Source of the DNA: Paramarasmius palmivorus
Taxonomy: Eukaryota; Basidiomycota; Agaricomycetes; Agaricales; Marasmiaceae
Reading direction: 5' to 3'
Assembly: GCA_037176845.1 (NCBI GenBank)
Contig: JAYKXP010000063.1
Coordinates: 1-64,000, forward strand
DNA length: 64,000 nt
Below are positions 1 to 16,703 of this stretch, piece after piece. Under the pieces are notes generated by a model, which was given only the letters and a program-made list of their open reading frames with translations, searched no databases and was not told where the DNA came from. How positions within the stretch are numbered: position 1 is the stretch's first letter; every line of letters starts with the position of its first letter. A program made the translations under genes and the position numbers.

Positions 1-146
1 AATAAACGTTGGGTGCGCACCTTGTCCTCAACCTAATTCCATGTTCTCTTTCCTTGTCCTTCATATCTGTGCTCCCGGTATCACACATAGAGTAGTCTAG
101 CAAAGATGTATCAGTAGCATATCGCAATAGAAGGAAAAGACCATAC
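1..146 (-). other. Intron-spacer-intron module M0 (cut by window edge)
   Basis: Read on the minus strand: donor AAAG|GTATGG at 146, acceptor CACAG at 67, a 46-nt spacer exon (66 to 21) ending in ACAAG, then donor GTGCGC at 20 running out of the window. It matches the other modules in order and in the ACAAG|GTGCG junction. Confidence 0.5.
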
Positions 147-393
147 CTTTAGCGTATCCGTCGACGGCCGTGGTGCTAAAAGAGCTCTGGTGGTGACATG
201 AGATTTAACGGCGTAATCCTGTTCACCGTCTCAAAAAAAACTCCCCGGCCAATTGTCGGTGCTATTTTCATGTCGTTGAGTGGCTTCGTGTTGGTTGAGA
301 TGCCATATGCCACCATGTTGCTTCTGTTTTGCTGCGGTCAGGGTGATGCGGGTGAAGGGACTGCAATGAGACGGTGTCGGCGCTGCTGAAGCC

Positions 394-569
394 CTGGAAG
401 AAGCGAAATCGTTAGCAGAGGAAACGAAAAAGAAGAGTCAGGTACGTACCTTAGTATTTGCACATGTTCATCTCGCCGGCTCCTCCTTCATAGTCCCTGG
501 TAGCGCGTAGGTAGCCTGAATGATAAATGTAAGTAGTACCTTGAATAATTCAACGAAAAAAAAACATAC
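394..569 (-). other. Intron-spacer-intron module M1
   Basis: Minus-strand reading: donor CAG|GTATG at 569, acceptor TTCAG at 516; spacer exon 515-450 (66 nt) ending CTAAG; second donor GTACGTAC at 449, branch GCTAACG, acceptor TTCCAG at 394. Intron sizes are 54 and 56 nt. Confidence 0.55.
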
Positions 570-888
570 CTGTGGGTGATAGTGAAAGGCACTTACCTCT
601 GCGCCGTCGTCGTGGTGAAAGGCAAACAGTCGATGTGACACAAAGTCACGCTCGCTGCCAATCACCGTTGCCCGTCATCCATACTTCAGAACAGCCTCTG
701 TCACTGCAAGAGCAACGAATTCGTCGCTCTGCGCGTAGGCAGAGGCTAGGAAAGACTTTGGATGTCGAGCTCGCGGTGATGGTGAAGTGGAATCGGGTGG
801 AAGGTGATGGTAGTGGTCGCAATGACGCCAACGTGCACCGTCGACGCCATATACATAACCAACAACAATTTGGACTTCCCGCCACCTT

Positions 889-968
889 CTAAAGCATGCA
901 AAAAGCACTATATAATGATAGAGTAAATAGTTAGCAATAATGACTGAAGTAAAATCAGGGAAACGTAC
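889..968 (-). other. Intron of module M2
   Basis: Minus-strand donor GCAAG|GTACGT at 968, branch TGCTAACT, acceptor CTTTAG at 889 (80 nt). A close paralog near 9,642-9,562 has lost its GT donor. The second intron of this module was not located. Confidence 0.5.
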
Positions 969-1249
969 CTTGCGCGCTGTCGTTGTTGTTGATGATAGCA
1001 GTTCGGTATTAAGAGCACGCTGCCTCCTGTGAATGCCTGTCTGTCCGGCAAAACAACGCCAAGGTTCACAGTCGACGCCATAAATAAAGCATATGTGTAG
1101 GCTCTGGGGCAGTTGGTCGGAGCTGTGGCCGGTGTTCTTGGCGTTCAAAGCTGTTGGGTGCGGTTGGATCTCGTTCGGCGTTTCTCGAGGGAATAGCGGG
1201 TAGCGGTGGGTACGGGGGTGTAGGGAGTGTAGAATAGACAGAATATATT

Positions 1250-1431
1250 CTGTCAAAGAGAAACCAAAGTAAGGAAACGCAAGAAAAAAAGACGATGACC
1301 ACGCACCTTGCGCCTATTCCCTCGACCATTCTGCCTCCTTCCTCGACGCCCATCCCTTCTTCAAGTCCCAATGCATATTCCTATCGACATAAGTTAGCAA
1401 AGAAAAAGGAACGAAAGGAAGGGAACCTTAC
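1250..1431 (-). other. Intron-spacer-intron module M3
   Basis: Minus strand: donor ACG|GTAAGG at 1431, branch GCTAAC, acceptor GATAG at 1381 (51 nt); 74-nt spacer exon 1380-1307 ending GCAAG; donor GTGCGTG at 1306, acceptor GACAG at 1250 (57 nt). The first donor sits directly beside a CCATCGTC-GGA-GACGATGG hairpin. Confidence 0.6.
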
Positions 1432-1690
1432 CGTTGCTGCCATCGTCGGAGACGATGGTGGTAAGAGGTCAAGAGGGATAGCGTGAGAAATGACTCACGC
1501 TGTCCCTCAATGCCGGTGTAACCGGCTAACCCATTGTCACGTCCCTTTGTCCACGACGAAGGGACGTGATATGGATACCCGAGGATAAGTGTATGGCTAC
1601 ACCTATCCTCGGGTATGGAACCATTCATCGCCGACGTAGAGCGATGAATGGTTCCATTACCCGAGTCTAGCACGCTAGACTCGGGATTCA
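1428..1690 (-). repeat. Conserved hairpin block, copy A
   Basis: Order of stem-loops (plus-strand reading): CCATCGTC/GACGATGG (1440-1458); AGCGTGAG/CTCACGCT; GCCGGT/ACCGGC; CGTCCCTT/AAGGGACG; ACCCGAGGATA/TATCCTCGGGT; a CCATTCATCGC/GCGATGAATGG stem; CCCGAGTCTAG/CTAGACTCGGG. The same order recurs in copies near 2.55, 10.5, 11.3, 12.55 and 13.4 kb with altered stems. Confidence 0.7.
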
Positions 1691-1845
1691 CCCTTCGTCA
1701 ACCCTTCGTCCACGACGAAACGAAGGGTTGGGAGTTGGGTACACAAGGGTGAGTATACCACGAGGACAAACGAATGTCCCTCGGGTATGGAACTATCCCT
1801 GCAGTAGTCTTGCGCTACCGCAACCGTAGTCCAGACGCCTCGAAA

Positions 1846-1902
1846 TAGCCTCTGGTACTACGGGAGGGATGAATTCATCCCTCCGTGCGTATCCAGAGGC
1901 TA
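1846..1902. repeat. Two-part stem hairpin, TAGCCTCTGG family
   Basis: Outer stem TAGCCTCTGG/CCAGAGGCTA, an asymmetric internal loop (about TACTAC against GTGCGT), and an inner palindromic stem GAGGGATG/CATCCCTC. One of eight family members in the window (also 3698, 7419, 9974, 10792, 12003, 12850, 15164). Confidence 0.7.
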
Positions 1903-2041
1903 AGGAGTTGCTGGAATACTGGGTGTGGGGGTCGGCAAGGGGATATGGGGCGCGTTCCGTGATATTGAGGGTCTTCTATCGAGAAGTCGTCGGCGGCGGC
2001 AAAGGGAATGTGAATAAAAGATGAAACAGAAAAAATATAAC

Positions 2042-2221
2042 CTGTCGAAGGGGAATTAAAGGTAAGAATCACGGCAGGAAAAAGTTTACTGGCACGCACC
2101 TTGTCCCTCTATCTTTTCCATTTTCCCCGAGGTTCGCGCTTTCTGCTGCTCTGGAAAGTAAATCTGTGATAGTACATTAGAATTAGTGTATGTTGATAAA
2201 ATAAAAAAAGGTAGAACGTAC
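2042..2221 (-). other. Intron-spacer-intron module M4
   Basis: Minus strand: donor GCAAG|GTACGT at 2221, branch CTAATTCTAAT, acceptor CACAG at 2164 (58 nt); 64-nt spacer exon 2163-2100 ending ACAAG; donor GTGCGTG at 2099, acceptor GACAG at 2042 (58 nt). Confidence 0.6.
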
Positions 2222-2363
2222 CTTGCGTGATCGTCGTCGAAGACGATGGTGGTGGTAAGAGTGTGGCCGGTGTGTCTTGAGTGCTGTTGGGTGTCGTTGG
2301 GCGTTTCTCGAGGGGGTAGCGGGTAGCGGTGGGTATTGAGGTGTAACATAGAAGGAATATATT

Positions 2364-2545
2364 CTGTAAAAGAAAAATAAAAGTAAGAAAATGCATGACA
2401 AAAAGACAACGGCTACGTACCTTGCGCCTGTAGCCTCAACCATTCTCCCTCCTTCCTCGACGCCCATCCCTTCTCTCAATCCCAACAACTACTCCTTTGA
2501 AAACTAGTTAGCAAAGAACAGGGAAAGAAAGAAAGAAAACCGTAC
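2364..2545 (-). other. Intron-spacer-intron module M5
   Basis: Minus strand: donor CAAAG|GTACGG at 2545, branch GCTAACT, acceptor AGTAG at 2489 (57 nt); spacer exon 2488-2421 (68 nt) ending GCAAG; donor GTACGTA at 2420, acceptor TTACAG at 2364 (57 nt). A close copy lies at 11,124-11,305. Confidence 0.6.
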
Positions 2546-2547
2546 CT

Positions 2548-2850
2548 TTGCTGCCATCGTCTTAGACGATGGTGGTGGTAGAAGGGCAAGAGAGGGCAGC
2601 GTGAGAAAAGGCTCACGCTGCCCTCAATGCCGGTCTAACCGGCAAACCCAAGTCACATCCCTTTGTCCACGACGAAGGGGTGAGACTTGGGTACCCGAGG
2701 ATAAGCGTATTCATTACGCTTATTCTCGGGGAAGGGTTCTAATCATTGCAGTATCGTCCTCGACGATGCTGCAATGAAGATTCCACCCCGTGGACCTGAG
2801 TCAGGGTCTAGACTCAGGTTCACGGGTCCGAAAGATGTCCGAGGACTGTG
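2548..2850 (-). repeat. Conserved hairpin block, copy B
   Basis: Same order of stems as copy A, with changed arms that still pair: CCATCGTC-TTA-GACGATGG, GGCAGCGTGAG/CTCACGCTGCC, GCCGGT/ACCGGC, CCCGAGGATAAGCG/CGCTTATTCTCGGG, then a TGCAGTATCGTC/GACGATGCTGCA-like stem and a GACCTGAGT/ACTCAGGTT stem. Confidence 0.65.
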
Positions 2851-3105
2851 ACCATCATGGTCACAGTCTTTTTCTTCAAACGTACCACCATCGTCGTCGT
2901 CGACGATGGTGGTAGTAACAGGTTAAGAGAGGCAGCTTTCTCGCGCTGCCTCTCTTTGCCGGCTTGACCGGCAAACCCATTGTAACCCTAGTGGCTTGAA
3001 GCCATTAGGGTTACAGCTCGTTTCTGCGGAACGGGGATGTGACCGTAACGTCACATCCCTCTTACATTCTTACCACCACCATCCATCGTCGACGACGAGC
3101 AACAG
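2845..3105. repeat. Strand-switch hairpin block 1
   Basis: Contains GACTGTGACC/GGTCACAGTC, CACCATCGTC/GACGATGGTG, GCCGGCT/GACCGGC, TAACCCTA/TAGGGTTA and GGGATGTGAC/GTCACATCCC stems. Introns left of it are on the minus strand, those right of it on the plus strand. A homologous block occupies 13,383-13,600 at the second strand switch. A bidirectional start of transcription here is inferred, not seen. Confidence 0.55.
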
Positions 3106-3285
3106 GTAGGTTTTTCTTCTTCTATTTTCCTTCAACAACTAACATATATTTTCAGATCTATATACTTACGTCGGAGATACCGAGAGCAGGAGAAAGAAAG
3201 GGTAAAGGGGAATAGCAATGTCAAGGTATGTGGACTAACCGTTCAAATTTTGTTGTTTCTCTGAACGTTATCCTTGCCGTTACAG
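3106..3285 (+). other. Intron-spacer-intron module P1
   Basis: Donor ACAG|GTAGGT at 3106, branch ACTAAC, acceptor TTTCAG at 3155 (50 nt); spacer exon 3156-3225 (70 nt) ending TCAAG; donor GTATGTG at 3226, acceptor TTACAG at 3285 (60 nt). The donor follows a CATCGTC-GAC-GACG hairpin. Confidence 0.6.
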
Positions 3286-3697
3286 CCCATCCGGTACGAA
3301 GAACCCACCGGCATCCACGATCTCAATCCCGCCCTACCTCAACGCAAGCGATCGCGAAACGACCGTGGAAGTCCGTCAAGAACGCTCAAAGACCCCAGAA
3401 TACTCGTTCTGGGGCTCTTTGAGTGGCATGTTTTGACTTTGGCATCAGCGTAAAACGCTGATGCTTCTTCTTCGCCATTTCCACCGTACCAACACCCGCC
3501 ACGACACCATGCACCTGCCTTCCACCCAACCAACCCCCTGTGCACCAGACACCCGAGTATCGGTACAGGGTGTTCTGGTGCATGTAGCTCAGAATATGGC
3601 ATCGGCTACGCTCGCCGATGCCTTCCTTTTTGTCGCCGCCATGTCCTTCACCATCTTCCCCTTCCTCAACCTGTCCCAACATCCACCACAGCTCACT

Positions 3698-3753
3698 TAG
3701 CCTCTGGGTACAAAGAGGATGACGGTTTCGTCGTCCTCGCGTTCCAGAGGCTA
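3698..3753. repeat. TAGCCTCTGG-family hairpin
   Basis: Constant outer stem TAGCCTCTGG/CCAGAGGCTA around a different inner stem, GAGGATGAC/GTCGTCCTC. The change of inner stem relative to 1846-1902 affects both arms. Confidence 0.65.
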
Positions 3754-4021
3754 TTGGATTGCTTCCGGTGTGGTTAGGTAGGTATGAGACGAGCGCCGTC
3801 AGTGTACTTGAGATGGACTCAAGTACATTGACTGTGCAGCATTCGTCCTTGATGAATGCTGCACTAGGGACTCCAGAGTGATACTATGGAGTCCCCCATC
3901 ACCGTTAACCTCCCCTACATCAATTCGTCGTCGACGAATTGATGCAGGCTAAGCGCGACTGCCACTCAGGCTCACCCCGTACCCGTCTTCGTCTACGACG
4001 AAGATGGACGCTGAGCGCTCT

Positions 4022-4086
4022 GTGGCAGTGAACCTGGTCCGTCCCACGCTCGGCAAAAGCGTGGGACGGACCAGGTTCACTGCCAC
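4022..4086. repeat. Perfect 29-bp hairpin, copy 1
   Basis: Arms 4022-4050 and 4058-4086 are exact reverse complements (begin GTGGCAGTGAACC, end GGTTCACTGCCAC) with loop CGGCAAA. Copies are at 6882-6946 and 15,851-15,915. Confidence 0.9.
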
Positions 4087-4209
4087 ACAACCCTCTACCC
4101 GTCTTCGTCTACGACGAAGAACAGAGACAAAAAGAAGGATGTGACTGTAACGGTCACATCCTCTCTTAGCCTCTTACCACCACCTCCCGTCGTCGACGAA
4201 GGACAACAG

Positions 4210-4394
4210 GTAAGGTTTTCTTTTCTTTTCTCTCTTCCATCACTAATATTCACTTTCAGAACTACATACGTGGGTATAGGGAGAATCGCGAGCGCAGAAG
4301 AAAGCAGGAACATGTAGGATTAACAAGGTCAAGGTGCGTCAGCTAATCGTTCAATTTCTTTTTCGTTTTCTGACTCATCTTTTTGCCGTTACAG
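4210..4394 (+). other. Intron-spacer-intron module P2
   Basis: Donor ACAG|GTAAGG at 4210, branch CACTAAT, acceptor TTTCAG at 4259 (50 nt); spacer exon 4260-4333 (74 nt), homologous to the P1 spacer and ending GTCAAG; donor GTGCGTC at 4334, acceptor TTACAG at 4394 (61 nt). Confidence 0.6.
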
Positions 4395-4998
4395 AGCACT
4401 CATTTCTATCAAGAACCCGTATCACCACACCCACATCCCTTCTACGGGGGTAGCCAAGATAGGAGCCAAATATCGCCTCACCGCCGTCGTTATCGTCAAC
4501 ATCAACGACTAATCAAGCTTCACCATCACCATCTCCAGCTGCTCTCGGGTTATGACACCCCTATCACCTTCGATAACCAACCAACCTAACCTACCAACCA
4601 CTCTCCTACTCCGGTAGCTAGAGTGGTAGCCTCCTACTCCGGTAGCTAAGGCACTCGGTCGGTGTAGATGATGCACACCACATTTTTTGTTTGTCTTCGA
4701 CGGACGGGTCCCTAGGCCACGAATTACTGAAACCTCATTTATGTGAGGTACTAGTTATCTACTTCGTCGGAGACGAATCTAAAACTGCATCAGCGACACA
4801 AGTCGCGGAGCAATTGATCCGAGCGACACAAGTCGCGTTTGTAGGATGTTGTTCATGTAGTTTGGACCAGTCTTCGGCGTGTGTAGAAACTGGGAGGTGG
4901 AGAATTCAGCCTGGTGTCTAGTTCCAGTCATAGCTGTCAATGTCGCAAGTGTTTAGATATGTGTAACTGAGGCCTGCACCATGTAGGAATAGAGTCGG

Positions 4999-5090
4999 AA
5001 AGGTATCGGAAAGTTGTTTGAAAGACGTCGGAAAGGTGTCGGAAAGTTGTCTGAAAGATGTCGGAAAGGCGTCGGAAAAGTGTCGGAAAG
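4999..5090 (+). repeat. Short tandem repeat, about 11 bp unit
   Basis: Eight or so imperfect units of the form GTCGGAAAGNT / GTCTGAAAGAT follow one another immediately before the hairpin tandem array. Confidence 0.7.
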
Positions 5091-6510
5091 ACTACCTGGG
5101 CGTCGTGGATGCCTCACTTTAGGAATCATGGTTTTGGGAACCTATTAATAGCATGTGGTTGTAGACCAGAATAAAATTCTCAAGTCCCATCCCTCTAGGG
5201 CGTCGTAGACGCCTTAGATCAAGAGACCAAGAATAAAGTTCCCACACTATGTCCCATACCTACCAGGGCGTCGTAGACGCCTCACATCAGGGTTCAGCAT
5301 TCAGGGATTAGGAAACTTGTTAACTATCAGTCACAGATGCCTCGTGGTGATACAAAGTCTTACAAAAGAAACTTCATATGGCTCAACAACATAACACAAG
5401 ACATTGCTATCCCACCAGGGCGTCCACGACGCCCTTGTGTGGTGCATCCTGACAAGATAATAGTATTTCTAATGTCACAATCTTACTTAACCTCAGACAT
5501 GTCTATTCCTGGGCGTCGTAGACGCCTCATTGTAGTCTAGGGGACCCGTAAACAGCATGATGCAGCTCAGAATAAAATTCTCACAACAAGTTCCATCCCA
5601 TCAAGGCGTCTACGACGCCCTAGATCAACAGACCCAGAATAAAATTTCCACACTATGTCCCATCTCAGCAGGGCGTCGTAGACGCCTCATTGTAGTCTAG
5701 GGGACCTGTTAACAGCATGTTGTAGACCAGAATAAAGTTCTCACGATGAGTCCCATCTCAGCAGGGCGTCGTAGACGCCTCATTGTAGTCTAGGGGACCT
5801 GTTAACAGCATGTTGTAGACCAGAATAAAGTTCTCACGATGAGTCCCATCTCAGCAGGGCGTCGTAGACGCCTTGGATCAACAGGCCCAGGATAAATTCC
5901 CACACTACCTCATATCTCACTGGAGCGCCTCACATTAGGGTATAGGGTTCAGGGGTTTGGGAACTTGTTTACTATCAGTCGTAGATGCCTCTAGAGAGTG
6001 CAGAATTATATGCTGATACAAAATCACATGAAATAAACTTCATATAGCTTAAGACATTGGCATCCCACTAGGGCGTCGTGGACGCCCTGGATGACCAGAC
6101 CCAGAATAAATTCTCACGCTATGCCTCATTCCACCTGGGCGTCGTGGACGCCCTACTTTAAGGTGCATGTTCATGGAACATTGTTAAAGTAACAAAGTAA
6201 TGACTACAATAAAGTCCCATCATGAGTCCTATCACACCAGGGCGTCGTAGACGCTAAGGATGTGCAGACCCAGAATAAAATTCTCACGGCAAGCCCCATC
6301 CCACCAGGGCGTCGTAGACGCCTCTGTTCCACATACCCTACCAGACCCAGAACAAATTCTCACACTATGTCTCATCCCACCTGGGCGTCGTGGACGCCCT
6401 ACTTTAAGGTGCATGTTCATGTCATAGACACCAAGGACGTGCAGACTCAGAGTAAAATTCTCACAGTAAGCCTTGTCCCACCAGGGCGTCGTAGACGCCT
6501 CTGTGTGGTG
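5090..6510 (+). repeat. Tandem array of GGGCGTC hairpins with AATAAA-like hexamers
   Basis: About fifteen units, each with a GGGCGTC-NNN-GACGCC hairpin (for example 5671, 5764, 5857, 6307, 6386, 6482) and, in most, a CAGAATAAA-type element 20-90 bp away. Three consecutive units at 5671, 5764 and 5857 have an exact 93-bp period. The hexamer matches the eukaryotic poly(A) signal and the pairing with a GC-rich stem-loop recalls RNA 3'-end signals, but that role is inference. Confidence 0.75.
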
Positions 6511-6523
6511 AGATTCCACATAC

Positions 6524-6640
6524 CCTAGCACACCCAAACCAACCAACCAAGTACCCTAGCACACCCAGACCGACCAACCAAGTACCCTAGGGTTGATATC
6601 GACCCTAGACCGACCCTACATCGTCCTAATAACCCCTAAC
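6524..6640 (+). repeat. CCTAGGGT-rich closing repeat 1
   Basis: Repeats of ACCAACCAAGTACCCTAG followed by the palindrome GGTTGATATCGACC and TCGTCCTAATAACCC. Its last bases run straight into a spacer-like end (AACAAGGTCAAG) and the donor at 6650. Homologous closings lie at 8572-8705 and, more diverged, 16,542-16,703. Confidence 0.65.
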
Positions 6641-6649
6641 AAGGTCAAG

Positions 6650-6699
6650 GTGCGTCGGCTAATTGTTCAATTTTTTTTTGTTTTCTGACTCCTCTCCAG
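6650..6699 (+). other. Second intron of module P3 (first intron lost)
   Basis: Donor GTCAAG|GTGCGTC, long T tract, TGACT branch, acceptor CTCCAG (50 nt). The sequence matches the second intron of P2; the P3 first intron and spacer appear replaced by the closing repeat. Confidence 0.5.
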
Positions 6700-6820
6700 C
6701 CGTTACGGTGCCCTAATCCTCTCAAGAACCCTTACGCCCTTGCCATTCCTCGTCGTAGACGAGGTGATGCTTTCATATTTTTACTCGAGTCTGATGAATT
6801 CATCAGGCTCGAGTAAAAAT

Positions 6821-6886
6821 GCCACAGGGCGCTCACCCACATCTATTCGTCGTTGACGAATAGATGCAGGCTGAGCGCCCTGTGGC
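6821..6886. repeat. Two-part hairpin with 15-bp outer stem
   Basis: Outer arms GCCACAGGGCGCTCA (6821-6835) and its exact complement (6872-6886) enclose an asymmetric internal loop and an 11-bp inner stem ATCTATTCGTC/GACGAATAGAT with triloop GTT. The right outer arm shares GTGGC with the next hairpin, so the two folds are mutually exclusive at their ends. Confidence 0.85.
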
Positions 6887-6946
6887 AGTGAACCTGTTCC
6901 GTCCCACGCTCGGCAAAAGCGTGGGACGGAACAGGTTCACTGCCAC
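6882..6946. repeat. Perfect 29-bp hairpin, copy 2
   Basis: Same as 4022-4086 except that one stem pair is changed on both arms (CCTGGTCC/GGACCAGG has become CCTGTTCC/GGAACAGG), so pairing is kept. The loop is identical. Confidence 0.9.
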
Positions 6947-7022
6947 TCAGGCTCACCCCGTACCCTTCTTCGTCTACGTCCACGACGAATAACCCTTCGC
7001 GATCGTTGCCGATGAAACAAAG

Positions 7023-7203
7023 GTACGTTCTCCCTGCAAACATCCACCTTGTCTAACTAACGTATCACTCATAGGTTCATGTTACTGCGATTAGGTGGAA
7101 CGTGAGGTGCGAGAAAGGAAGCAAAGAAGGTGTGATGGTCTTCTAAGGTGCGTGGTCGTCAGGCCCCCTTTTTGCCATTCTAATGTTTTCTTTCTACGTT
7201 TAG
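7023..7203 (+). other. Intron-spacer-intron module P4
   Basis: Donor CAAAG|GTACGT at 7023, branch TAACTAAC, acceptor CATAG at 7074 (52 nt); spacer exon 7075-7147 (73 nt) ending CTAAG; donor GTGCGTG at 7148, branch CTAATG, acceptor GTTTAG at 7203 (56 nt). Confidence 0.6.
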
Positions 7204-7418
7204 CCTATAAACTTAATGCAAGACCTCAATGGCTCACAAGAACCGACGAACTCAAACGCTCGAGGCAACCTTCAAGATGCATCCCCTGCGCCTGAAGATC
7301 CCAGAAACTGTTCGTTCCGGAGTTTCTCAAATACTTTGCTTCAAATACGGCATTTGCTCACCTCAACAATGTCTCGCCGATACACGCGCTCCCATTTCCG
7401 CTTTCTATCCCTTGTCGC

Positions 7419-7472
7419 AGCCTCCGGATATCCAGAGATGGCCATTTTGCCATACTCGAGGTTCCGGAGGCT
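7419..7472. repeat. TAGCCTCTGG-family hairpin with altered outer stem
   Basis: Outer stem is AGCCTCCGG/CCGGAGGCT: relative to the family, a T-A pair has become C-G on both arms. Confidence 0.6.
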
Positions 7473-8168
7473 TCTAGAGGTCTAGTGGGCTGGGTTGTTT
7501 CTGGGCGTAATCGTTGGTGTCCCGCTGACGTCGCCTTTATGGTTGTGATGTCACGGGCACACCCTCTTCTTTCCTTAGGCCTAGGAACGTGCGCTTGGTA
7601 TCCAATATTTTTGGATAGCAGGATCTAACCGTTCGTCTTAGACGAACGGTTACTTAGGGAACTCTGTGCAGGTATCTTTCAGCCATCGTCAATGACGACT
7701 GGATGTGGATTGGGGAACTGTCATTGCAAAAATGATGGTCCGATCATGGCCGTTCATCTTGATTCGTCATAGATGAATGAGTGTGTGCCGTGAAAATTCA
7801 CGTAGCAATGTACAGATTCGTCGTTGACGAATACATGTAGGCTGGGAGCCACTGGCGCTCGTACAACCTGGTACCCCATCGTCGTAGACGAAGGGGTGTT
7901 GTCTAAGCCGGCACTATCATTTTGCGGGTGTGATGCAAAGGCACACCCGCTCTCGCGTTTGTCGTCGACAAATGCTTCCTTACCTATTCATGTACCCGAG
8001 TAATCTCGGGTACACTGATTTTGGCTTGGTCAAGGAGCATTTGTCGACGACAAATGCTCTGGTAGAGGTAACCTTGGGTACATTGGGCATGTGTATCTCG
8101 CCTAACACTCATCCCCGTACCCATCTTCGTCGACGACGAATAAACCTTTTTCTTGATAGTTAATTCTT

Positions 8169-8222
8169 GTAAGCTATTTTTTTTGTTTCTACCTATTCTA
8201 CCTACTAATGGTACTTTGATAG
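8169..8222 (+). other. Intron of module P5
   Basis: Donor CTT|GTAAGC at 8169, T-rich tract, branch CTACTAAT, acceptor TGATAG at 8222 (54 nt). A copy at about 16,088 keeps donor and branch but has no clear acceptor. Confidence 0.5.
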
Positions 8223-8571
8223 GTTATCACCGCAAACACTCATTCGTCTACGACGAGTGAGTGTGGCATGTTTACTCGAGCCTGATGAAAATTCATCAGA
8301 CTCGGGTAAAGATGTATTAAGCGGTGCTTGCACACTTGTGCGTCGTAGACGATGGATTGTGCAGCTGAACATTACATTCCCACGGTATGTTCTGGCTTGC
8401 TCTCCCTCAATCGTCTACGACGCATCAGTACACTTGTCTCCAGTCCAAAAAAAATCACACGGTATGTTCATCAAACACATATCCTCGTGGACGAACTACT
8501 TTTGCACTAATCAAACTTTGCCAGAAATAAACATCAAAGTCCCAATACCCTAGACTACCCTAGCCAACACT

Positions 8572-8705
8572 TCCCGTAAATCATCCCCTACCCTAGCACA
8601 CACTCAACCAAGTACCCTAGGGTCGATATCGACCCTAGACCGACCCTACATCGTCCTAATAACCCAAGATATCGACCCTAGACCAACCCTACATCGTCCT
8701 AATAA
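8572..8705 (+). repeat. CCTAGGGT-rich closing repeat 2
   Basis: Carries CCCTAGGGTCGATATCGACC followed by two imperfect copies of a unit ending ACATCGTCCTAATAACC. It ends the first plus-strand arm. Confidence 0.65.
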
Positions 8706-9440
8706 CCACACTCAATACCCTCTTCATTTCAACTTCTCATTCACAAATGCTATCACCAGTTGTAAAACTTGCTCAAATTATATTCACTTCCATAACATCA
8801 CTTTTACCCGTACATATGTATCCTTCATGAGACAACTTTCATTTTCTCATGAAACTCTATTGCTGATCCATACGGGAACAAATAAACTTTTTAGTTCGCC
8901 GTCGGGAAATTCAACTTTGTCAAAACCTCTTGAAAAAAATTATGTTTCTCCATAATGCTATATACTTTACCAGTCAGCTTTTATTTCATTCCCAAAATCA
9001 CCTGTGGTCTTGTACGGGAAAATTTTCACTTTCTGTCGGAAAATTCTCAAGGCACTCAAGAATGTACACTATGATGGGGGCAGGATCACTGCCACTCAGC
9101 GCTTAGAGGGGGGCAGGTTCACTGCCACACAGTCTTCATCACATGGTCTTACTATCTTTTACCATTTACTTTAATCACAGCTAGTGATATTATTGTGAAA
9201 TGAATTCTTTGTACAAACTTGTATCTATATTATCAATACCACTTATATGATACAGTTGTGAATGTTGACTAAAAAGCCAGTGGTATGTGAATAAGGATTT
9301 GTTGAATCATCGTGACTGTTACGAGTTGATTGGTCTGCATAGTTACTGGGTTGCTAGTGACAGGAGAATATGGCGATAGTGGTGGCGAGCACAGAAAACA
9401 CGGCAGTGACTTTTGCTTGGGACGGGTGAAACAAAGAAGA
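8706..9440. other. AT-rich spacer between the two super-units
   Basis: No hairpin of the array type and no reading frame of note, apart from a degenerate CACTGCCAC fragment near 9,090-9,140 left from the 29-bp hairpin family. Introns converge on it from both sides, so it is the expected place for transcript ends. Confidence 0.5.
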
Positions 9441-9446
9441 TATAAG

Positions 9447-9564
9447 CTGTAGAACAGTTATTGAGCTGAGAAACGCAAGAAAAAAAGATCGGACACACAC
9501 CTAGTACCTTGTCACCTCAACTATATATTAACCCGCTCTCTCCCTTCTTAGTCGTCCACCTTCT
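9447..9564 (-). other. Intron-spacer module M6 (partly degraded)
   Basis: Minus strand: acceptor CCTCAG at 9562, spacer exon 9561-9501, donor GTGTGTG at 9500, acceptor CTACAG at 9447 (54 nt). The first intron's donor (near 9,642) reads ATACGT instead of GTACGT, so this module may no longer splice. Confidence 0.4.
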
Positions 9565-9973
9565 GAGGCATGTAGATAGCGCTATGTAATGCTTGAGTAA
9601 ATAGTTAGTAATAACGACTGAAGGAAAATCATGGAGACGTATGGGCGCCGTCATCGACGATGGTGGTTGGTGGTTGGATATCAAGAGAGGCGACGTGAGA
9701 CCTTTTCACACGCTGCCTCTGAATGGTGATCCGTCTGGCAAAACAAGGGCATAGGGCACATCGGTTCGTCGAGGACAAACTGATACGCCTTGTGTAAACC
9801 CTCGTAGGGTCACTCGAAGGTAATGGCAACCGATGAAGACCCAATACTAACGTTATTAGGATTTCCGATGCCGAACGCGATTATGATGCCAGCGGAAACA
9901 CGAGACATCATCTTCGTCGACGGTTGGATCCTTCCCGCTAGTCACCTTGTCCCTCTACATAGAAGTCTCGGAA

Positions 9974-10030
9974 TAGCCTCTGGGACGACTGGAGTAGCGA
10001 ATTCGCATCTCTGCACGTCTCCAGAGGCTA
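9974..10030. repeat. TAGCCTCTGG-family hairpin
   Basis: Outer stem as in the family; inner stem AGTAGCGAATTCGC(A)T differs from the other members and still folds around GAATTC. Confidence 0.6.
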
Positions 10031-10322
10031 GAGAAGACCTCCTAGGCGTGGGGATTGATGCAGGGGAATGGCAATGGAGAGGCGGGGAAGTTGGTGGTGA
10101 GATTATATTGGGAATGATGTCGGCGAACCACGCCGTTGTGATATTCATGAGCCTTGATCCCAAAAACCCCAAGACGACTGGTCTAGGCAGTTCCGGGGTC
10201 ATTGATTACGGGTTGGGTTGGTAGTCTTCATATCTTCAAGTCTTCAAGAGGCGAGGTATCGAGCGAGACCTAGTGGCGGCGGGGAGTGGCGTGTCACAAA
10301 CATTGAAGATGATATATTTGAC

Positions 10323-10495
10323 CTGTAAAGAAAAACTAAAAGAAAAGAATGTAACGACAGTTCAACGGGCACGCACCTCGTATCACCTCGACTATTCTTC
10401 TATCTCCTCTGACATTTACCCTCTCCTAGTCACTGCAAATAGTACTTTGTTAACAAGTTAGTATTGATAGATTAATGAAGAGTAGAAAAACTGAC
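10323..10495 (-). other. Intron-spacer-intron module M7
   Basis: Minus strand: donor CAAAG|GTCAG (weak) at 10,495, branch ACTAACT, acceptor TTGCAG at 10,433 (63 nt); spacer 10,432-10,377 (56 nt); donor GTGCGTG at 10,376, acceptor TTACAG at 10,323 (54 nt). Confidence 0.5.
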
Positions 10496-10770
10496 CTTTG
10501 GCCTCTTGGTCCCGTCGTCGCGGACGATGGTGATGGTTGCAGTTCAAGAGAGGCAGCGTGAGAAAAGCCCTCAACGCTGCCTTTCAATGCCGGTCCAACC
10601 GGCGAAACCAAGTTACATCCCTTTGTCCGCGACGAAGGGATGTAACTTCAGTCCTCAAGGGTAGATGTACCAAGTACACTCACCCTTGAGTCTGGAACTA
10701 CGCCGCGTCGTTGACGCTACGGTGAATTTCCAGCGCACCCAAGTCTGAGCTGAGACTCGACTTGGGTCCC
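10495..10770 (-). repeat. Conserved hairpin block, copy C
   Basis: Same order of stems as copies A and B. The fifth stem reads CTCAAGGGTAGATGTA/TACACTCACCCTTGAG where copy A has ACCCGAGGATA/TATCCTCGGGT. Confidence 0.65.
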
Positions 10771-10791
10771 GACATCTCCAAGGCTGTTGTA

Positions 10792-10848
10792 TAGCCTCTG
10801 GGACTACACCAACAATGAACTCATTGTTGTGTTCGTGTCCAGAGGCTA
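10792..10848. repeat. TAGCCTCTGG-family hairpin
   Basis: Outer stem TAGCCTCTGG/CCAGAGGCTA with inner stem CAACAATGA/TCATTGTTG, unlike any other member but self-complementary. Confidence 0.65.
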
Positions 10849-11123
10849 AATACGCCTAGGATGTGGAGCTGGAATGGAGATATGGAGAAAGGGGTACTCG
10901 AGATTCCGGCGACGTCAGCATTCGTTGGGGACGTCGTAGCTGTAACCAAGGATCCCAAAAGCTTCCGGATATTGGGTCTAGGGGGTTTCGAGGCTGTTGG
11001 TCGGAGGTGTGGCCGGTGCGTTCTTGGTGTACAGCTCTTGAGTGTTGTTGGGTGTCGTTGGCGTTTCTCGAAGGAGTAGCGGGTAGCGGTGGGTATTGAG
11101 GTGTAACATAGAAGGGTTGTATT

Positions 11124-11305
11124 CTGTAAAAGAAAAATTCAAGTAAGAAAATGCAAGACAAAAAGACAACGGCTACGCACCTTGCGCCTGTAACCTAACC
11201 CATTCTCCCTCCTTCCTCGATGCCCATCCCTTCTCTCAATTCCAATAGATACTCCTTTTAAAACTAGTTAGCAAAGAACAGGGAAAGAAAGAAAGGAAAC
11301 CGTAC
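11124..11305 (-). other. Intron-spacer-intron module M8
   Basis: A near copy of M5. Minus strand: donor GTACGG at 11,305, branch GCTAACT, acceptor uncertain near 11,248; donor GCAAG|GTGCGTA at 11,180, acceptor TTACAG at 11,124 (57 nt). Confidence 0.5.
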
Positions 11306-11580
11306 CCGGCTGCCATCGTTCGAAGACGATGGTGGTGGTTGGAGATCAAGAGAGGCAGCGTGAGAAAAGACCTCACGCTGCCTCAATGCCGGTCTAACCG
11401 GCAATCCCAGGTCACATCCCTTTGTCTGCGACGAAGGGATGAGAGTTGGGTACTCGAGGGTAAATGTACCAAGTACACTTGCCCTCGAGTATGGAACCAT
11501 TCATCGCAGCTTCGTCGACGCTGCGATGAATGGCTCCATTACCCGAGTCTAGCGTGCTAGACTCGGGAACGAGAACGCAT
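11305..11580 (-). repeat. Conserved hairpin block, copy D
   Basis: Same stem order. The fifth stem is ACTCGAGGGTAAATGT/ACACTTGCCCTCGAGT; the sixth is CCATTCATCGCAGC/GCTGCGATGAATGG. Confidence 0.65.
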
Positions 11581-12002
11581 CTATTCGTCAAAGACGAATA
11601 GATGCAGGGTGAGCACCCTGTGGCAGATTCACTGCCACAGGAATAACTAATCAAGCCTTCGTCTATGACGAAGGTGTGCATTGCAACAACATTCGTCTAT
11701 GACGAATGTTGCAGATTTGCACCTGAGTATACAAGCTCAGGTGCAATAGGTATGGTCAGGAGAAACCATTCGTCACAGACGAATGGTTTGCTCCTTGCCG
11801 CTGCACAACAGCCATCAAGAACGTATGTGACAACAGGTCACATACGCTTCATGGTAGCGCCACCGCTCGAGGAACCCCGGCTTATTGTAAAGCGGTTCTC
11901 GAGTTCGGCGAAGACGACGGTGATGGGGTGTTGGGGTCGGGGTATGGTATGTAGTCCATATCGTGCCTTCGTACCCTTCACCTGAATCCAGAGGCTTCGT
12001 AA

Positions 12003-12059
12003 TAGCCTCTGGCACTACAAGAGTGACGCACTCGCCACTCTGCACGTAGCCAGAGGCTA
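12003..12059. repeat. TAGCCTCTGG-family hairpin
   Basis: Family outer stem with inner stem AGAGTGAC/GCCACTCT-like arms; the internal-loop bases ACTAC and TGCACGT are shared with other members. Confidence 0.6.
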
Positions 12060-12366
12060 GACTAGCCTTTGGATGTCGAGCTCTTGGTGGTGAAGGGGAA
12101 AGGGGTGAAGGGGGTGAATGATGGTCGGAATGACGCCGACGATGCACATCGGCGTCATGGGCATACCGAACGACCATAAAGACACCCAGACGCCAAGTCT
12201 GGATAGCCTTGAGGTCGTTCGTTGAGCGTAGGCTGGGGTGTGTTGGATCTCCGGATGTTCGAGCGACGACGGCGGTCCTTGACGAATCTTCAAGGAGCTG
12301 GTTGGTGTCGGCGAGTGGCGGGGTGTACGAAAGGTCGAAGTAAAAAAGAAAAAGGTAAGATATATC

Positions 12367-12547
12367 CTATGATAGCGAAAGTGGAATCAGGAAACGCAAA
12401 AAAGAAACGACCATTGCGCACCTTTTACCCGTTACCTCAACCGCTGTCCCTCCTTCTCCGTCGTTCCTTCCATCTCCGTAAGTCTGTATATAGCACTATA
12501 TTATATAGTTAGAAAGGATAAATAAAAGAATGAAAAAAAAAACAAAC
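12367..12547 (-). other. Intron-spacer-intron module M9
   Basis: Minus strand: donor CAAAG|GTTTG at 12,547, branch CTAACTA, acceptor TATAG at 12,496 (52 nt); spacer 12,495-12,422 (74 nt) ending AAAAG; donor GTGCGC at 12,421, acceptor CATAG at 12,367 (55 nt). Confidence 0.55.
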
Positions 12548-12790
12548 CTTTGTGTCGTTGATGATCGTGGTTGGAGGTCAAGAGAGGCAGCGTGAGAGAA
12601 GACTCACGCTGCCTCTCAATGCCGGACTAACCGGCAAACCCAAGTCGCAACACTAGGGTTACAATTCGGTTGCGGGACGGCGCACTTGTGTACTCGAGGA
12701 TGTTCATCCTCGAGTATGCAACTGTCACTGCAGTAATCGTCATCGACGATACTGCAATGACAGTTTCAACCCACTAACCTGGGTCTTTAC
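12545..12790 (-). repeat. Conserved hairpin block, copy E (shortened)
   Basis: Keeps GGCAGCGTGAG/CTCACGCTGCC, GCCGG/CCGGC and TACTCGAGGATG/CATCCTCGAGTA, and a CTGTCATTGCAGTA-type stem around CGTCATCGACG; the first hairpin is degenerate. Confidence 0.6.
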
Positions 12791-12849
12791 AATGCCCCTT
12801 GCCGCTACCTTTGTCTTCTCCCGTCAACCGCAGTCCAGAAGGCTCAAAA

Positions 12850-12906
12850 TAGCCTCTGGTACTACTGGAGGGATGAATTCATCCCTCCGTGCGTATCCAG
12901 AGGCTA
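12850..12906. repeat. TAGCCTCTGG-family hairpin
   Basis: Nearly identical to 1846-1902, including the inner GGGATGAATTCATCCC palindrome. Confidence 0.7.
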
Positions 12907-13197
12907 AGGGAGTAGCTGGAATGTTGGGTGTGGAAGTCCGGCAAGGGGATATGTAGCGGGATCTGCGCAATGGCAATATCGAGGTGGCGATAACGCCAAC
13001 GTGCTTCGTAGATGGCGTATACGGCATCCACGACGGGAGGAATGTTGATTCGTTTTGAGGATGTCGTCGTGGGGCCGGTCATTGGGGTGCGGGGTTGAAC
13101 GTTGCATCTTCGATGTTGTCCGTGCGGTTTTCTGGCGAGATATCGGCGGCGACAGCGAATAAAATTGAGAGATAAGAATAAAAAAATAAAAGATGAC

Positions 13198-13384
13198 CTG
13201 TAGCAGAGGTAATAGAGGTGAGAGGACGCCAGAAAAAAAAGATTATTGGGTACGCACCTTGTACCCTTCACCTTTTCCATTCTCCCTTCCTCCCCGATGT
13301 TCCTTCCTCCTCCTCCTGGTTCCAGTAGATAGTCCTGTAGCTACAAATTAAAAGTTATTGATGAAGAAAGAAAAGAAACCATAC
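13198..13384 (-). other. Intron-spacer-intron module M10
   Basis: Minus strand: donor CAAAG|GTATGG at 13,384, acceptor CTACAG at 13,335 (50 nt); spacer 13,334-13,258 (77 nt) ending ACAAG; donor GTGCGTA at 13,257, acceptor CTACAG at 13,198 (60 nt). Confidence 0.6.
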
Positions 13385-13600
13385 CTTTGTGCCATCGTCG
13401 TAGACGATGGTGGTTGTAAGAGTTCAAGAGAGGCCGCGTGAGAAAACGCTCACTCTCTATGCCGGTTTGACCGGCAAACCAGTGTAACCCTAATGGTTTG
13501 AAACCATTAGGGTTACAATTTGTTTCCGACATCCGGGGACTGTGACATCACAGTCACAGTCCCCTTCAAACGTACCATCATCGTCGTCGACGATGTAAAG
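13383..13600. repeat. Strand-switch hairpin block 2
   Basis: Homologous to the block at 2,845-3,105, with CCATCGTC-GTA-GACGATGG, GCCGGTTT/GACCGGC, TAACCCTAATGG/CCATTAGGGTTA, GGGACTGTGA/TCACAGTCCC and CATCGTCGTCGACGATG. Introns diverge from it. Confidence 0.55.
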
Positions 13601-13780
13601 GTAAACTAGCACTGCTATCTTTCAGATCTTTACAACTAACGATAATTCTTTTTAGGACTACTAGGATTGGGGAGGATTGGAGGATGAGGTCGGGCGGAAA
13701 AAATATGTATTGAGCATTCAAGGTGCGTGACTGTACGCTCGTATTTTCTATGGCTCTTAGTCTTTCTTTAATAAATTCAG
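13601..13780 (+). other. Intron-spacer-intron module P6
   Basis: Donor AAAG|GTAAAC at 13,601, branch ACTAAC, acceptor TTTTAG at 13,655 (55 nt); spacer 13,656-13,722 (67 nt) ending TTCAAG; donor GTGCGTG at 13,723, acceptor TTCAG at 13,780 (58 nt). The first donor abuts a CATCGTC-GTC-GACGATG hairpin. Confidence 0.6.
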
Positions 13781-13974
13781 GTACCGTATACTCATGTGGA
13801 CTCGAGAAGATTACCTTAGTGCCCCACCTATCCTCTACGTCGACGCCGCGGACGCTCTATTAAGGTAGACGTCCGGCCGTTCCTCTATTAAGGTAGAGGA
13901 ATGCGGCGGCGGCCAAGACTTCAGGAATGGGCGCTTCGTCTATGACGAAGGGTAGAATGGGACAGGGTAGCATC

Positions 13975-14061
13975 GGGCGCTTCGTATCGAGAATTATTTG
14001 ATACGAAGCGCCCACTCCAACCCGGCGCTTTGTATCCAATAATTCTCGATACGAAGCGCCC
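13975..14061. repeat. Pair of GGGCGCTTCGTATC hairpins with opposite loops
   Basis: The hairpin at 13,975-14,013 (loop GAGAATTATTT) is followed by one at 14,023-14,061 whose middle reads CAATAATTCTC, close to the reverse complement. The stems are otherwise nearly the same. Confidence 0.75.
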
Positions 14062-14172
14062 AAGGATCCAACCGTTCGTCTAAGACGAACGGTTGCTTTC
14101 CAGAGATGTGACTGTCATGTCACATCTCTCCTTTCCCTTTTTCTCTTCACCATCGCCACCGACGATCTAAAT

Positions 14173-14343
14173 GTAAGTCGTCCCTTTACCTCTCCCATAC
14201 CACAGCTAAAGTCTTCATTACAGTTTCTCAATATGTCATAGGATTGAGAGCAACCGTCGGCAGGGTGACGTAGAAGAAAAAATGGTGCGTGATTATTAAC
14301 TCAAAATTTTCAGTTCTTCTTACGCTTCCGTCTCTTCATCCAG
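14173..14343 (+). other. Intron-spacer-intron module P7
   Basis: Donor AAT|GTAAGT at 14,173, branch AGCTAAAG, acceptor TTACAG at 14,223 (or CATAG at 14,241); short spacer ending AAATG; donor GTGCGTG at 14,285, acceptor ATCCAG at 14,343 (59 nt). Confidence 0.5.
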
Positions 14344-14687
14344 TCTCGATACCGCAACTACCTCAAGAAACTGAATACACCTTCGCCATCACCACTGCCC
14401 TCAACGTCAACGTCCATTATCGCCACCCCCGAACCAAACCATTCCACCATCTCCAACCCATCGGCCACACTCGCTGATGCTCCCCTTTCTCTCACCGCCG
14501 CCTTCTTCCGCCTTCCTCCACCTATGCGTCGTCAACGAATTGACGCAGGCTGAGCGCTCATGTGGCAGTCCTGCCACCGGCCTTTCTGCCTGCGGATGCG
14601 ACGTCACAGTCACATCCGTTTTCTCTCAACTACCACCACCATCACGAAGACGCAAGGGCGAGTACCATCGACAACAACAATAAACAG

Positions 14688-14904
14688 GTAAGTCTTTTCT
14701 TTTATCTATACTACCACGCTAATATGCCCTATGTAGGACCACACTTACGACTTGAGGAAGAGGCTGGCATCATCGTCGCCGACGATGCCAAGGTAAGTGT
14801 TGCTTTGTAACCTTCCAATTTCAATGGCTTAATATTTTTTATTAGGATCACATATATTTTATCGGGAAGGTGATTGGCCAGAGAAGCAGTAAGAATGACC
14901 CAAG
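14688..14904 (+). other. Double module P8
   Basis: Donor ACAG|GTAAGT at 14,688 to acceptor TGTAG at 14,736; 56-nt exon holding CATCGTCGCCGACGATG; donor CCAAG|GTAAGT at 14,793 to acceptor ATTAG at 14,845; 58-nt spacer 14,846-14,903 ending CCAAG; donor GTGCGTG at 14,904 with uncertain acceptor (15,030 is possible). Confidence 0.5.
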
Positions 14905-15163
14905 GTGCGTGGCCTCTCACTCACCACTTTTCTTGTCAATCTTACGCACCTTTTTTTTCTCTCCGCTCGGTACTCATCACCACCCCACATGAAGCTGAAG
15001 CACATGATCCAGCCTTGCGACTACCTTCAGCGTCGATGCCAAATATATCAACGCACACAATTTCACCACCTCCGTTCAACCTGCTCCCCCTCACCGCATG
15101 CTTTTTCCTCGCCACCTTCACCCTCATCTCAACCTTCCATGGCACCTACTATCATGGCTATGC

Positions 15164-15217
15164 AGTCTCTGGATACGCGGAATGGCGAATTCGCCGTTCT
15201 ACACGTTCCAGAGACTA
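15164..15217. repeat. TAGCCTCTGG-family hairpin with altered outer stem
   Basis: Outer stem AGTCTCTGG/CCAGAGACT: a C-G pair of the family is T-A here on both arms. Inner stem GAATGGCGAATTCGCCGTTC. Confidence 0.65.
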
Positions 15218-15482
15218 CGACAGTGCAGATGTAGGCTGTTCTGAGTGGCGAGATAGTCGGGATAGTCATTGTTACAATCGACTATCCCTGTGGTGTGGGC
15301 ATCATCGAGAATCTCAGAACACTTGCTCTAAGATCTCTCGCTGCCCGTGTTTAGCCATCGTGCTCTCCTCTGCTATTGCAGACGGAGGACGCGGTTTGTT
15401 CCTGGTAGCGGAAGTGACATCACAGTCAAATCCGCTCCTGTTATCTTACCTTCGTCGTCGTCGTCGTTGCCGACAATGCACG

Positions 15483-15530
15483 GTAAGTGTTTCTTAGTCT
15501 CCTTTTACACGACTAACTTGTTACTTCTAG
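15483..15530 (+). other. Intron of module P9
   Basis: Donor CACG|GTAAGT at 15,483, branch GACTAAC, acceptor TTCTAG at 15,530 (48 nt). The following 13-nt segment ends AAAG|GTAAGC, perhaps a further donor. Confidence 0.5.
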
Positions 15531-15850
15531 CATTACGCTAAAGGTAAGCATTCGTCATGGACGAATGCTTCGTTAGCCGTGTATGTACCCTGAGCATGGA
15601 GCATTCGTTCATGACGAATACTCCAAAAACCATCATTGCGAAAATGATGGTTAGACCATACTTTACTCAAGTCTGATGGAAGTCCATCAGACTCAAGTAA
15701 AGATTCCAGTACTCACTCTTTGTCTACGACGAGGGTGTACACAATTGGGTCTTTACTCGAGTCTGGTGAATTTCATCAGACTTGAGTAAAGATCTAGCGC
15801 TCACCCACATCTATTCGTCGTTGACGAATGGATGGCAGGTTGAGCGCCCT

Positions 15851-15915
15851 GTGGCAGTGAACCTGGTCCATCCCACGCTTTTGCCGAGCGTGGGACGGAC
15901 CAGGTTCACTGCCAC
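15851..15915. repeat. 29-bp hairpin, copy 3, loop inverted
   Basis: Arms match copies 1 and 2 except for one G-to-A change in the left arm (15,870) that is not compensated. The loop reads TTTGCCG, the reverse complement of CGGCAAA in copies 1 and 2. Confidence 0.85.
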
Positions 15916-16541
15916 CAGGCTCATACGACCCCGTACCCATCTTCGTCGTAGACGAAGAATGGTTTCCTTCATCTTGGGATAGCTAGGAAGATCAACAAGT
16001 AACGAATTACCTGAAGACTGTTCACGCTCACCGCTCCACGTCCACGACAAATGCAATGAACCTGTTTGCATATGGATAAACATTCTTGTAAGTTATTTTT
16101 TTTTTGTATCTATGTACTCCTACTAATGGTGCTCATCACCGCAAACACTCGTTCGTCTACGACGAGTGAGTGTGGCATCTTTACTCGAGCCTGATGGAAA
16201 TTCATCAGACTCGGGTAAAGATGCCATACAGCAGCACAATCATTCGTCGTAGACGCAACTGAATGTACTTACCCTGAGGCCTTCAATATTAGTTCATCAG
16301 TGCAGCGTCGTAGACGATGAGAAGAGTGAAACAGAACTTTCAATTCCCACGATAAGCTCAACTCGCTTTCCCTTCATCGTCCCCGACGCTCATTACAACA
16401 ATAGGCTCATGTCTCAATATATCACGGTAAGTCAATAAAACAGCATTCTTCTAGGACGATAACTTTATGCTAACTAAAAGTCCCCAGAAATCTCTAAGTC
16501 CCCAGGGTTATCAGGGTCTACCCAACCCGTTATGCCCCCAC

Positions 16542-16703
16542 CACACCCTAGGGCACCCTAGGGTCACCTATAGGTATACCGACCCTAGAGTGACCCTAGG
16601 TCGTCCTAATAACCCCTAACCCCAGCACACCCTAGGGCACCCTAGGGTCACCTATAGGTATACCGACCCTAGAGTGACCCTAGCATCATCTAATAACCCT
16701 ATT
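16542..16703 (+). repeat. CCTAGGGT closing repeat 3 (84-bp tandem pair)
   Basis: Two copies of an 84-bp unit beginning CACACCCTAGGGCACCC and ending CCTAATAACCC, the second slightly shortened. It shares the CCTAATAACC end with the closings at 6.6 and 8.7 kb and marks the right border of the array. Confidence 0.75.

Follow-up and report, generated by a model that had tools for sequence, protein, structure and literature searches.

In yeast, subtelomeric Y' units occur in tandem and encode a helicase. The subtelomeric homologous (SH) sequences of some fission-yeast ends contain RecQ-type helicase genes, and in the same yeast RNA interference (RNAi) on subtelomeric transcripts helps establish heterochromatin, as described in parts of PMC10216677. 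Non-coding transcripts of chromosome ends include telomeric repeat-containing RNA (TERRA), whose occurrence in fungi is treated in parts of PMC8113380, and the telomere-associated long non-coding RNAs (lncRNAs) of Plasmodium (PMC3218844). Here we analyze an element that shares traits with both groups, at the start of a contig of Paramarasmius palmivorus. The window is the first 64 kb of this 326,740-base contig, and all copy comparisons were made within the 68.3-Mb assembly of the species. Like the yeast Y' and X elements and the fission-yeast SH elements, the element is repeated at several ends, is telomere-adjacent and comes in tandem units. Like TERRA and other subtelomeric lncRNAs it is non-coding, sits at chromosome ends and has one arm directed toward the telomere. 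It consists of stereotyped modules in which hairpins precede two predicted introns, and we regard it as quite probably a spliced, structured non-coding RNA element.

The position of the element is seen by combining searches for its centre and for telomere repeats. The centre (window 2884-3100) returns 64 matches by blastn, 18 of which span most of the query, on 15 contigs. By pattern search the telomere repeat of this genome is TTAGGGG/CCCCTAA; four tandem copies of TTAGGG, tried as the telomere, are absent. Arrays of CCCCTAA/TTAGGGG adjoin the element, opening the stretches of contigs C124, C40, C351, C357 and C154 and closing those of C335 and C372, and the repeat is further placed on C27, C56, C83, C91, C92, C95, C103 and C109 (first 100 of 160 places, with one isolated match on C33 set aside). 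Nine of the 15 capped ends so named carry the element centre (C27, C40, C92, C124, C154, C335, C351, C357 and C372), and truncated or partial copies lie on four others, C83, C109, C95 and C103, the first two being counted as capped from the repeat match. C83 and C109 present arm motifs alone, 1-2 kb from the repeats, recognized by motif matches with no centre match by blastn; these copies are probably truncated. On C95 the telomere repeats sit directly on a truncated arm (locus L035, 1-140) and on C103 directly on an element fragment of about 170 bases (locus L034, 3970-4000), a placement that resembles telomere healing. The element is a subtelomeric repeat that stands beside telomere repeats at several chromosome ends. 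In addition, TTCGTCNNNGACGAA, the core of many of its hairpins, occurs 118 times in the genome compared with 11 times for a reversed control; among 50 of the 118 sites listed, 44 are on element-bearing contigs.

Going inward from the telomere, a unit opens with AT-rich sequence and a conserved segment. Next come a first arm, with its modules on the telomere-pointing strand, the palindromic centre, and a second arm whose modules lie on the opposite strand; a conserved end closes the unit. The module arms of each unit point away from the palindromic centre, and the map indicates that the two strands of modules are two divergent arms of one unit. The window carries two units in tandem, as mapped by blastn to other subtelomeres, with boundaries near 8,665/8,707 and 16,620; the contig begins within unit 1, without a telomere. 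The parts are the following.

1-8665, no strand: unit 1, the distal copy of the tandem, truncated at the contig start and comprising minus arm, centre, plus arm and end sequence (blastn map).
1-2880, minus: telomere-ward arm of unit 1, with modules near 141, 430, 963, 1426, 2216 and 2540 (intron signals, covariance model).
2884-3105, no strand: palindromic centre of unit 1 and first plus-arm hairpin block, up to the donor at 3106 (18 aligned copies, fold z).
2886-8665, plus: centromere-ward arm of unit 1 (blastn map, cassette test).
8339-8665, no strand: conserved centromere-side unit end, with its unit 2 counterpart at 16305-16615 (blastn map).
8707-16620, no strand: unit 2, the proximal tandem copy, starting with a segment that is telomere-adjacent elsewhere (blastn map, segment copies).
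8707-9380, no strand: this conserved segment; on C351, C154, C357, C92 and C124 the distance from the contig end to the start of its copy is 559-665 bases.
9400-13394, minus: telomere-ward arm of unit 2, with modules at 9637, 10498, 11300, 12542 and 13379 (covariance model, cassette test).
13395-16620, plus: centre and centromere-ward arm of unit 2, with modules at 13530, 14097, 14589, 14768 and 15402 (18-copy alignment, covariance model).

The plus arm of unit 1 also holds a minisatellite-like array (5090-6505) of the palindrome GGCGTCGTAGACGCC, spaced mostly 66-103 bases. A direct repeat with an 11-base period (GTCGGAAAG-like) occupies 4982-5101, immediately ahead of this array, and pieces related to the array are present on C335, on C344 and at the C103 end.

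Each module runs in the order hairpin A, linker, hairpin B, a few bases, 5' splice site, intron, purine-rich microexon and second intron. Hairpin A is of the GAGGCAGCGTGAG type in telomere-ward arms and of the GGATGTGAC type in the other arms, the linker resembles CTCTTAnnCTCTTACCACCACC, and hairpin B is CATCGTC-N3-GACGATG. The first intron usually measures 50-60 nt. The donor of the second is GTGCGT in the cassettes found; as GTGCG served to find them, the conservation of that donor carries no weight, and some modules use a different second donor (3226 and 2420). The search started from 106 AGGTGCG[TC] sites with full flanks, 37 of which failed a purine/pyrimidine filter while 69 (66 unique) were kept. 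A slightly looser filter and three more contigs, with one site removed by hand, brought the set to 86 intron-microexon-intron cassettes on 16 contigs, near-duplicates included, which supplies the further copies for which the initial annotation of the window had proposed a genome search.

Across these 86 cassettes, sense-strand hairpin coverage is 0.14-0.48 in 40-nt bins from -600 to -161 of the second donor, with a peak of 0.48 at -200; it is 0.00-0.03 from -160 to +159 and 0.03-0.24 beyond. Coverage is maximal just ahead of intron 1 and near nil within the introns and the microexon, and this asymmetry around the second donor makes the module order directional. The spacing of hairpin and splice site is regular: 58 of the 83 unique modules have CGTC-N(2-5)-GACG between -240 and -125 of donor 2, and the distance from GACG core to donor is 7-12 nt in 47 of the 51 modules that have both donors and hairpin B. 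The first intron after the centre, located through hairpins only and with acceptors checked by a hand-made pattern, keeps its GT donor, AG acceptor and CTAA-type branch site in 18 of 18 copies, at an average identity of 72% for the intron interior and 84.5% for the exon block. Strict intron-like signals number 12 in 1-17 kb (two of them sharing one acceptor), 3 in 17-64 kb and 0-2 in each of 20 shuffles.

The stereotyped hairpin-intron-microexon-intron module that the initial annotation described in the first ~17 kb is real, as seen in the hairpins, the coverage profile and the covariance model presented below, and its count of at least 17 copies is about right. We considered 19 candidate places (17 chosen from 38 covariance-model matches and 2 added by hand); 14 contain a full two-intron cassette and five do not. 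Three of these five retain intron or donor signals, 141 and 963 having a first intron and 14768 leading to a GTGCGT donor at 14905. The proposed junctions 3106/3155 and 3226/3285 are correct as sequence positions. Microexon lengths, as placed automatically, extend over 43-83 nt instead of the annotated 45-77 nt. One of the 14 cassettes, at 449-262 on the minus strand, has a weak second donor; other cassettes and introns are given here.

1250-1431, minus: intron 1 1431-1381, microexon of 74 nt, intron 2 1306-1250.
2042-2221, minus: intron 1 from 2221 (end at 2164 or 2151, by two methods), intron 2 2099-2042.
2364-2545, minus: intron 1 2545-2489, intron 2 2420-2364.
3106-3285, plus: intron 1 3106-3155, microexon of 70 nt, intron 2 3226-3285.
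4210-4394, plus: intron 1 4210-4259, microexon of 74 nt, intron 2 4334-4394.
7023-7203, plus: intron 1 from 7023 (end at 7074 or 7094, by two methods), intron 2 7148-7203.
10336-10495, minus: weaker cassette, intron 1 10495-10426, intron 2 10376-10336.
11124-11305, minus: intron 1 11305-11255, microexon of 74 nt, intron 2 11180-11124.
12367-12547, minus: intron 1 12547-12484, intron 2 12421-12367.
13198-13384, minus: intron 1 13384-13341, intron 2 13257-13198.
13601-13780, plus: intron 1 13601-13655, microexon of 67 nt, intron 2 13723-13780.
14173-14343, plus: intron 1 14173-14241, intron 2 14285-14343.
14688-14845, plus: introns 14688-14736 and 14793-14845, then the further GTGCGT donor at 14905.

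Perfect hairpins (stem of at least 8, loop of 3-12) are concentrated in the element. The first 17 kb contain the starts of 69 of the window's 77, the other 47 kb contain 8, and one mononucleotide shuffle of the first 17 kb yields 2. Two hairpin blocks fold with z = -13.3 (2886-3105) and z = -12.9, with none of 200 shuffles as good in either case. One hairpin that was aligned among copies is the following.

4022-4086, plus: 29-bp hairpin, present also at 6882-6946 and at 15851-15915, the last with an inverted loop.

Alignment of 16 copies of this hairpin (9 distinct rows; copies across a piece boundary or outside the fetched pieces were left out) reveals that 99.2% of cells pair and that four pairs carry changes in both partners, G-C to C-G and A-U to U-A among them. 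The telomere-ward-type module (29 rows), in which hairpin B is a structure named by hand, has six pairs altered on both sides, and hairpin A of the other arms (22 rows) has two. The covariation score of each of the three alignments was reached by 0 of 500 shuffles, counts that are not probabilities as the aligned rows are related copies. The aligner received 29 of the 35 telomere-ward-type and 22 of the 24 other-arm sequences, length or hairpin outliers being left out. RNAalifold prediction recovers hairpin A in both module types, with hairpin B just shifted or shorter and with small covariation terms. Taken from these alignments, compensatory changes are present in the stems of the 29-bp hairpin and of the telomere-ward-type module, and the case for the other-arm hairpin A is weaker. 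A covariance model of the telomere-ward-type pre-donor module gives 38 matches (E up to 1) in the window, all within 141-15,963, and 127 matches (E up to 1e-4) in 25 fetched loci; both counts take both strands, on which near-palindromes yield weaker wrong-strand matches. The model has zero matches in nine of the 25 loci (L010, L014, L017, L019, L022, L025, L027, L021 and L028), of which L021 and L028 do contain element parts.

The initial annotation saw no surviving protein frame, and the coding tests agree. In the longest open frame after intron 2, compared in 75 related copy pairs, the substitution rate is flat over codon positions (0.203, 0.211 and 0.196); gap lengths in these pairs are divisible by three in 64 of 312 cases, and exon-block indels in 13%. 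Homology to a protein-coding element, to which the annotation had drawn attention, was not found for the longest open frame (212 aa), and Pfam gave zero matches for the two long frames of the window's element tested. We reject the protein-coding reading on the absence of codon periodicity, the mostly non-triplet indels and the lack of a homologue for the 212-aa frame; the element is without coding constraint. Two observations speak for a decayed multi-exon coding gene, or for retroelement remnants multiplied at telomeres. Three of the four sense arms contain open frames of 183-212 codons, longer than the 95% level of shuffled sequence. Sense-strand stop triplets are also depleted over ~560 nt downstream of intron 2 in the tested modules, despite the missing codon signal; the sense frame that stays open longest meets its first stop at a mean of 90 codons, compared with 51 and 60 in two shuffle kinds. 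Such an origin is nevertheless very improbable in the face of the flat codon positions, the gaps and indels, the frames without homologue or Pfam match and the covarying stems. We give as little credence to a TERRA precursor, in which the telomere-ward arm would be the 5' part of a telomeric-repeat RNA. One arm does point to the telomere, and at five ends a distance of 1.1-2.1 kb separates the last recognized GTGCG-type cassette from the repeats; however, transcription reaching the repeats is unsupported, the second arm points inward, and two of the 15 capped ends have no element in the 4 kb read.

The alternatives that act on DNA call for closer comparison with the loops. Template switching can create and maintain hairpins, and its marks in RNA genes are full loop inversion and multiple compensation, according to parts of PMC8794818. 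We compared loops between orthologous hairpins whose flanks are conserved and whose loops are equally long. By these loose criteria the loop is identical in 384 pairs, exactly reverse-complemented in 75 and changed in some other way in 293; the 75 inverted pairs represent 20 distinct cases. Under stricter limits the pairs are 137 same, 24 inverted and 36 other; counted as distinct cases, inversions number 14 and other changes 22, and a single substitution could explain 6 of the 14 inversions. Two 3.2-kb copies, on C9 and C124, differ in 34 columns, 7 of them within four inverted loops. Sense-oriented stem mismatches in 203 unique hairpins are G-U 73, A-C 52 and others 30 (p 0.07); counted as events they are 52, 35 and 28 (G-U versus A-C, p 0.09), and a smaller set gives G-U to A-C ratios of 44:36 and 31:27. 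Because loops invert exactly and G-U is not significantly favoured over A-C, DNA-level template switching probably helps to keep the hairpins perfect. The loop of hairpin A, by comparison, is pyrimidine-rich in the sense strand in all 30 modules readable by pattern. Hairpin A therefore seems not free to flip, and this fixed orientation suggests RNA-level selection there. In our view template switching preserves the stems, joined by RNA selection at least beside the splice site. A purely DNA-level element, whose inverted repeats act as cruciforms, fork barriers or recombination seeds that help to copy and heal ends while spliced RNA is incidental, would fit the exact inversions in near-identical copies, the mismatch counts, the tandem units and, at C95 and C103, the telomere repeats directly abutting truncated or partial copies. 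We judge it unlikely, though it is the alternative to which we give most weight: it leaves aside the conserved splice sites and branch site after the centre, a module order that follows the own direction of each arm, the single orientation of hairpin A loops and the avoidance of introns and microexons by hairpins. Less likely again is a passive by-product, a transcribed but otherwise idle subtelomere whose near-palindromes are made into perfect, functionless hairpins by template switching. The capacity of that process to make, maintain and invert hairpins, described in parts of PMC8794818, speaks for it, as do loop inversions of the same order as other loop changes (14 and 22 distinct cases). 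It does not anticipate the recurrence of CGTC-N(2-5)-GACG ahead of donor 2, the narrow core-to-donor spacing, or splice sites kept in every centre copy.

We return to the spliced, structured non-coding RNA. The initial annotation proposed a family of such RNAs, and its proposal is partly supported by conserved splice sites, covarying stems and non-coding sequence, with the amendment that DNA-level loop inversion also shapes the hairpins. Our best explanation is that divergent, spliced, hairpin-packed non-coding RNAs of chromosome ends feed RNAi and heterochromatin, with stems corrected by template switching; as a whole we lean slightly toward accepting it. Its sequence basis is the telomere-adjacent position, the directional modules, the conserved splice signals, the covarying stems, the absence of coding constraint and the inverting loops, and from these features we infer transcription, splicing and function. 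Transcription both ways from the palindromic centre would produce two long, multiply spliced, hairpin-packed RNAs, one running telomere-ward and the other centromere-ward. Hairpins A and B, which closely precede a module's first 5' splice site, may fold on the nascent RNA; together with a microexon between two short introns they would slow splicing. Structured or stalled RNA would remain at the chromosome end and feed the RNAi machinery, and this input would seed subtelomeric heterochromatin. Template switching at replication would keep correcting the stems, with loop inversion as its by-product. In Cryptococcus, production of small interfering RNAs (siRNAs) can be set off by stalled spliceosomes, as stated in parts of PMC6643885, which cites Dumesic 2013, and splicing stimulates siRNAs at fly double-strand breaks, as stated in parts of PMC5495518. 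RNAi domains are encoded in the P. palmivorus genome (29 Piwi, 27 RdRP and 4 Dicer_dimer matches, which are exon pieces and not genes). For the element itself an RNAi role is possible, and we hold it with considerable doubt.

Several observations weigh against this explanation. Most stems in the window are short by the stem-length threshold for Dicer: 41 of 53 listed hairpins have at most 16 pairs and nine have at least 20. The G-U preference expected from RNA selection is weak or absent in the stems. The covariation tests share the relatedness of their rows, and for hairpin A of the other arms 259 of 500 shuffles equal the number of pairs altered on both sides, and sliding by 3 columns gives almost the same score (0.147 compared with 0.157). 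Two capped ends, C56 and C91, have no element in the first 4 kb read. A guide-RNA reading of the 29-bp hairpin was tried and rejected, as 43 of its 47 matches (at most 3 mismatches) are on contigs known to carry the element; no target of the arm could be placed outside the element, the other four matches, on C167 and C309, standing outside the examined contigs.

At gathering score, no Rfam family matches the element in the 64-kb window, where the sole match is a tRNA. This tRNA covers 100 bases at 50107-50206 (plus), probably with an intron, and is not reported by ARAGORN run with the bacterial code. Among the matches listed from the open-access literature, judged by title and abstract start, no such element is described. 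If the element is transcribed, it would constitute an unusually large and regular structured RNA gene family at chromosome ends, with RNA hairpins precisely tied to splice sites and dozens of copies to compare. It makes testable whether splicing-linked RNAi marks mushroom subtelomeres, and what share of compensatory change in stems comes from DNA template switching as opposed to RNA selection. The latter share matters because covariation is usually taken as proof of functional RNA structure. More speculatively, and on balance doubtfully, the modules could represent a new class of chromosome-end RNA that marks ends through slow splicing and spreads protein-free while template switching renews its hairpins; structure would then be inherited while sequence and loop orientation drift.

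Hairpin small-RNA loci are known as microRNA-like RNA (milRNA) and hairpin RNA (hpRNA) loci. The element resembles these, and the stalled-spliceosome RNAi of Cryptococcus as presented in parts of PMC6643885, in having hairpins, introns and RNAi genes in the genome; it differs from such loci in its mostly short stems and in the absence of a target for the one arm tested. With the template-switch hairpins of Monttinen and Loytynoja 2022 (PMC8794818, in part) it shares compensatory change and complete inversion of loops on a retained stem. The cases described there come from RNA genes, rRNA for example, whereas the present element shows many recent inversions among its own paralogous copies. Unlike Y' and SH elements, it yielded no protein in the two window frames tested. 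In contrast to TERRA, it is dense in hairpins, repeats its two-intron cassettes and has a pair of divergent arms. Subtelomeric repeats and subtelomeric non-coding RNAs are each known; splice-site-linked hairpin modules arranged in two divergent arms appear to be a new combination.

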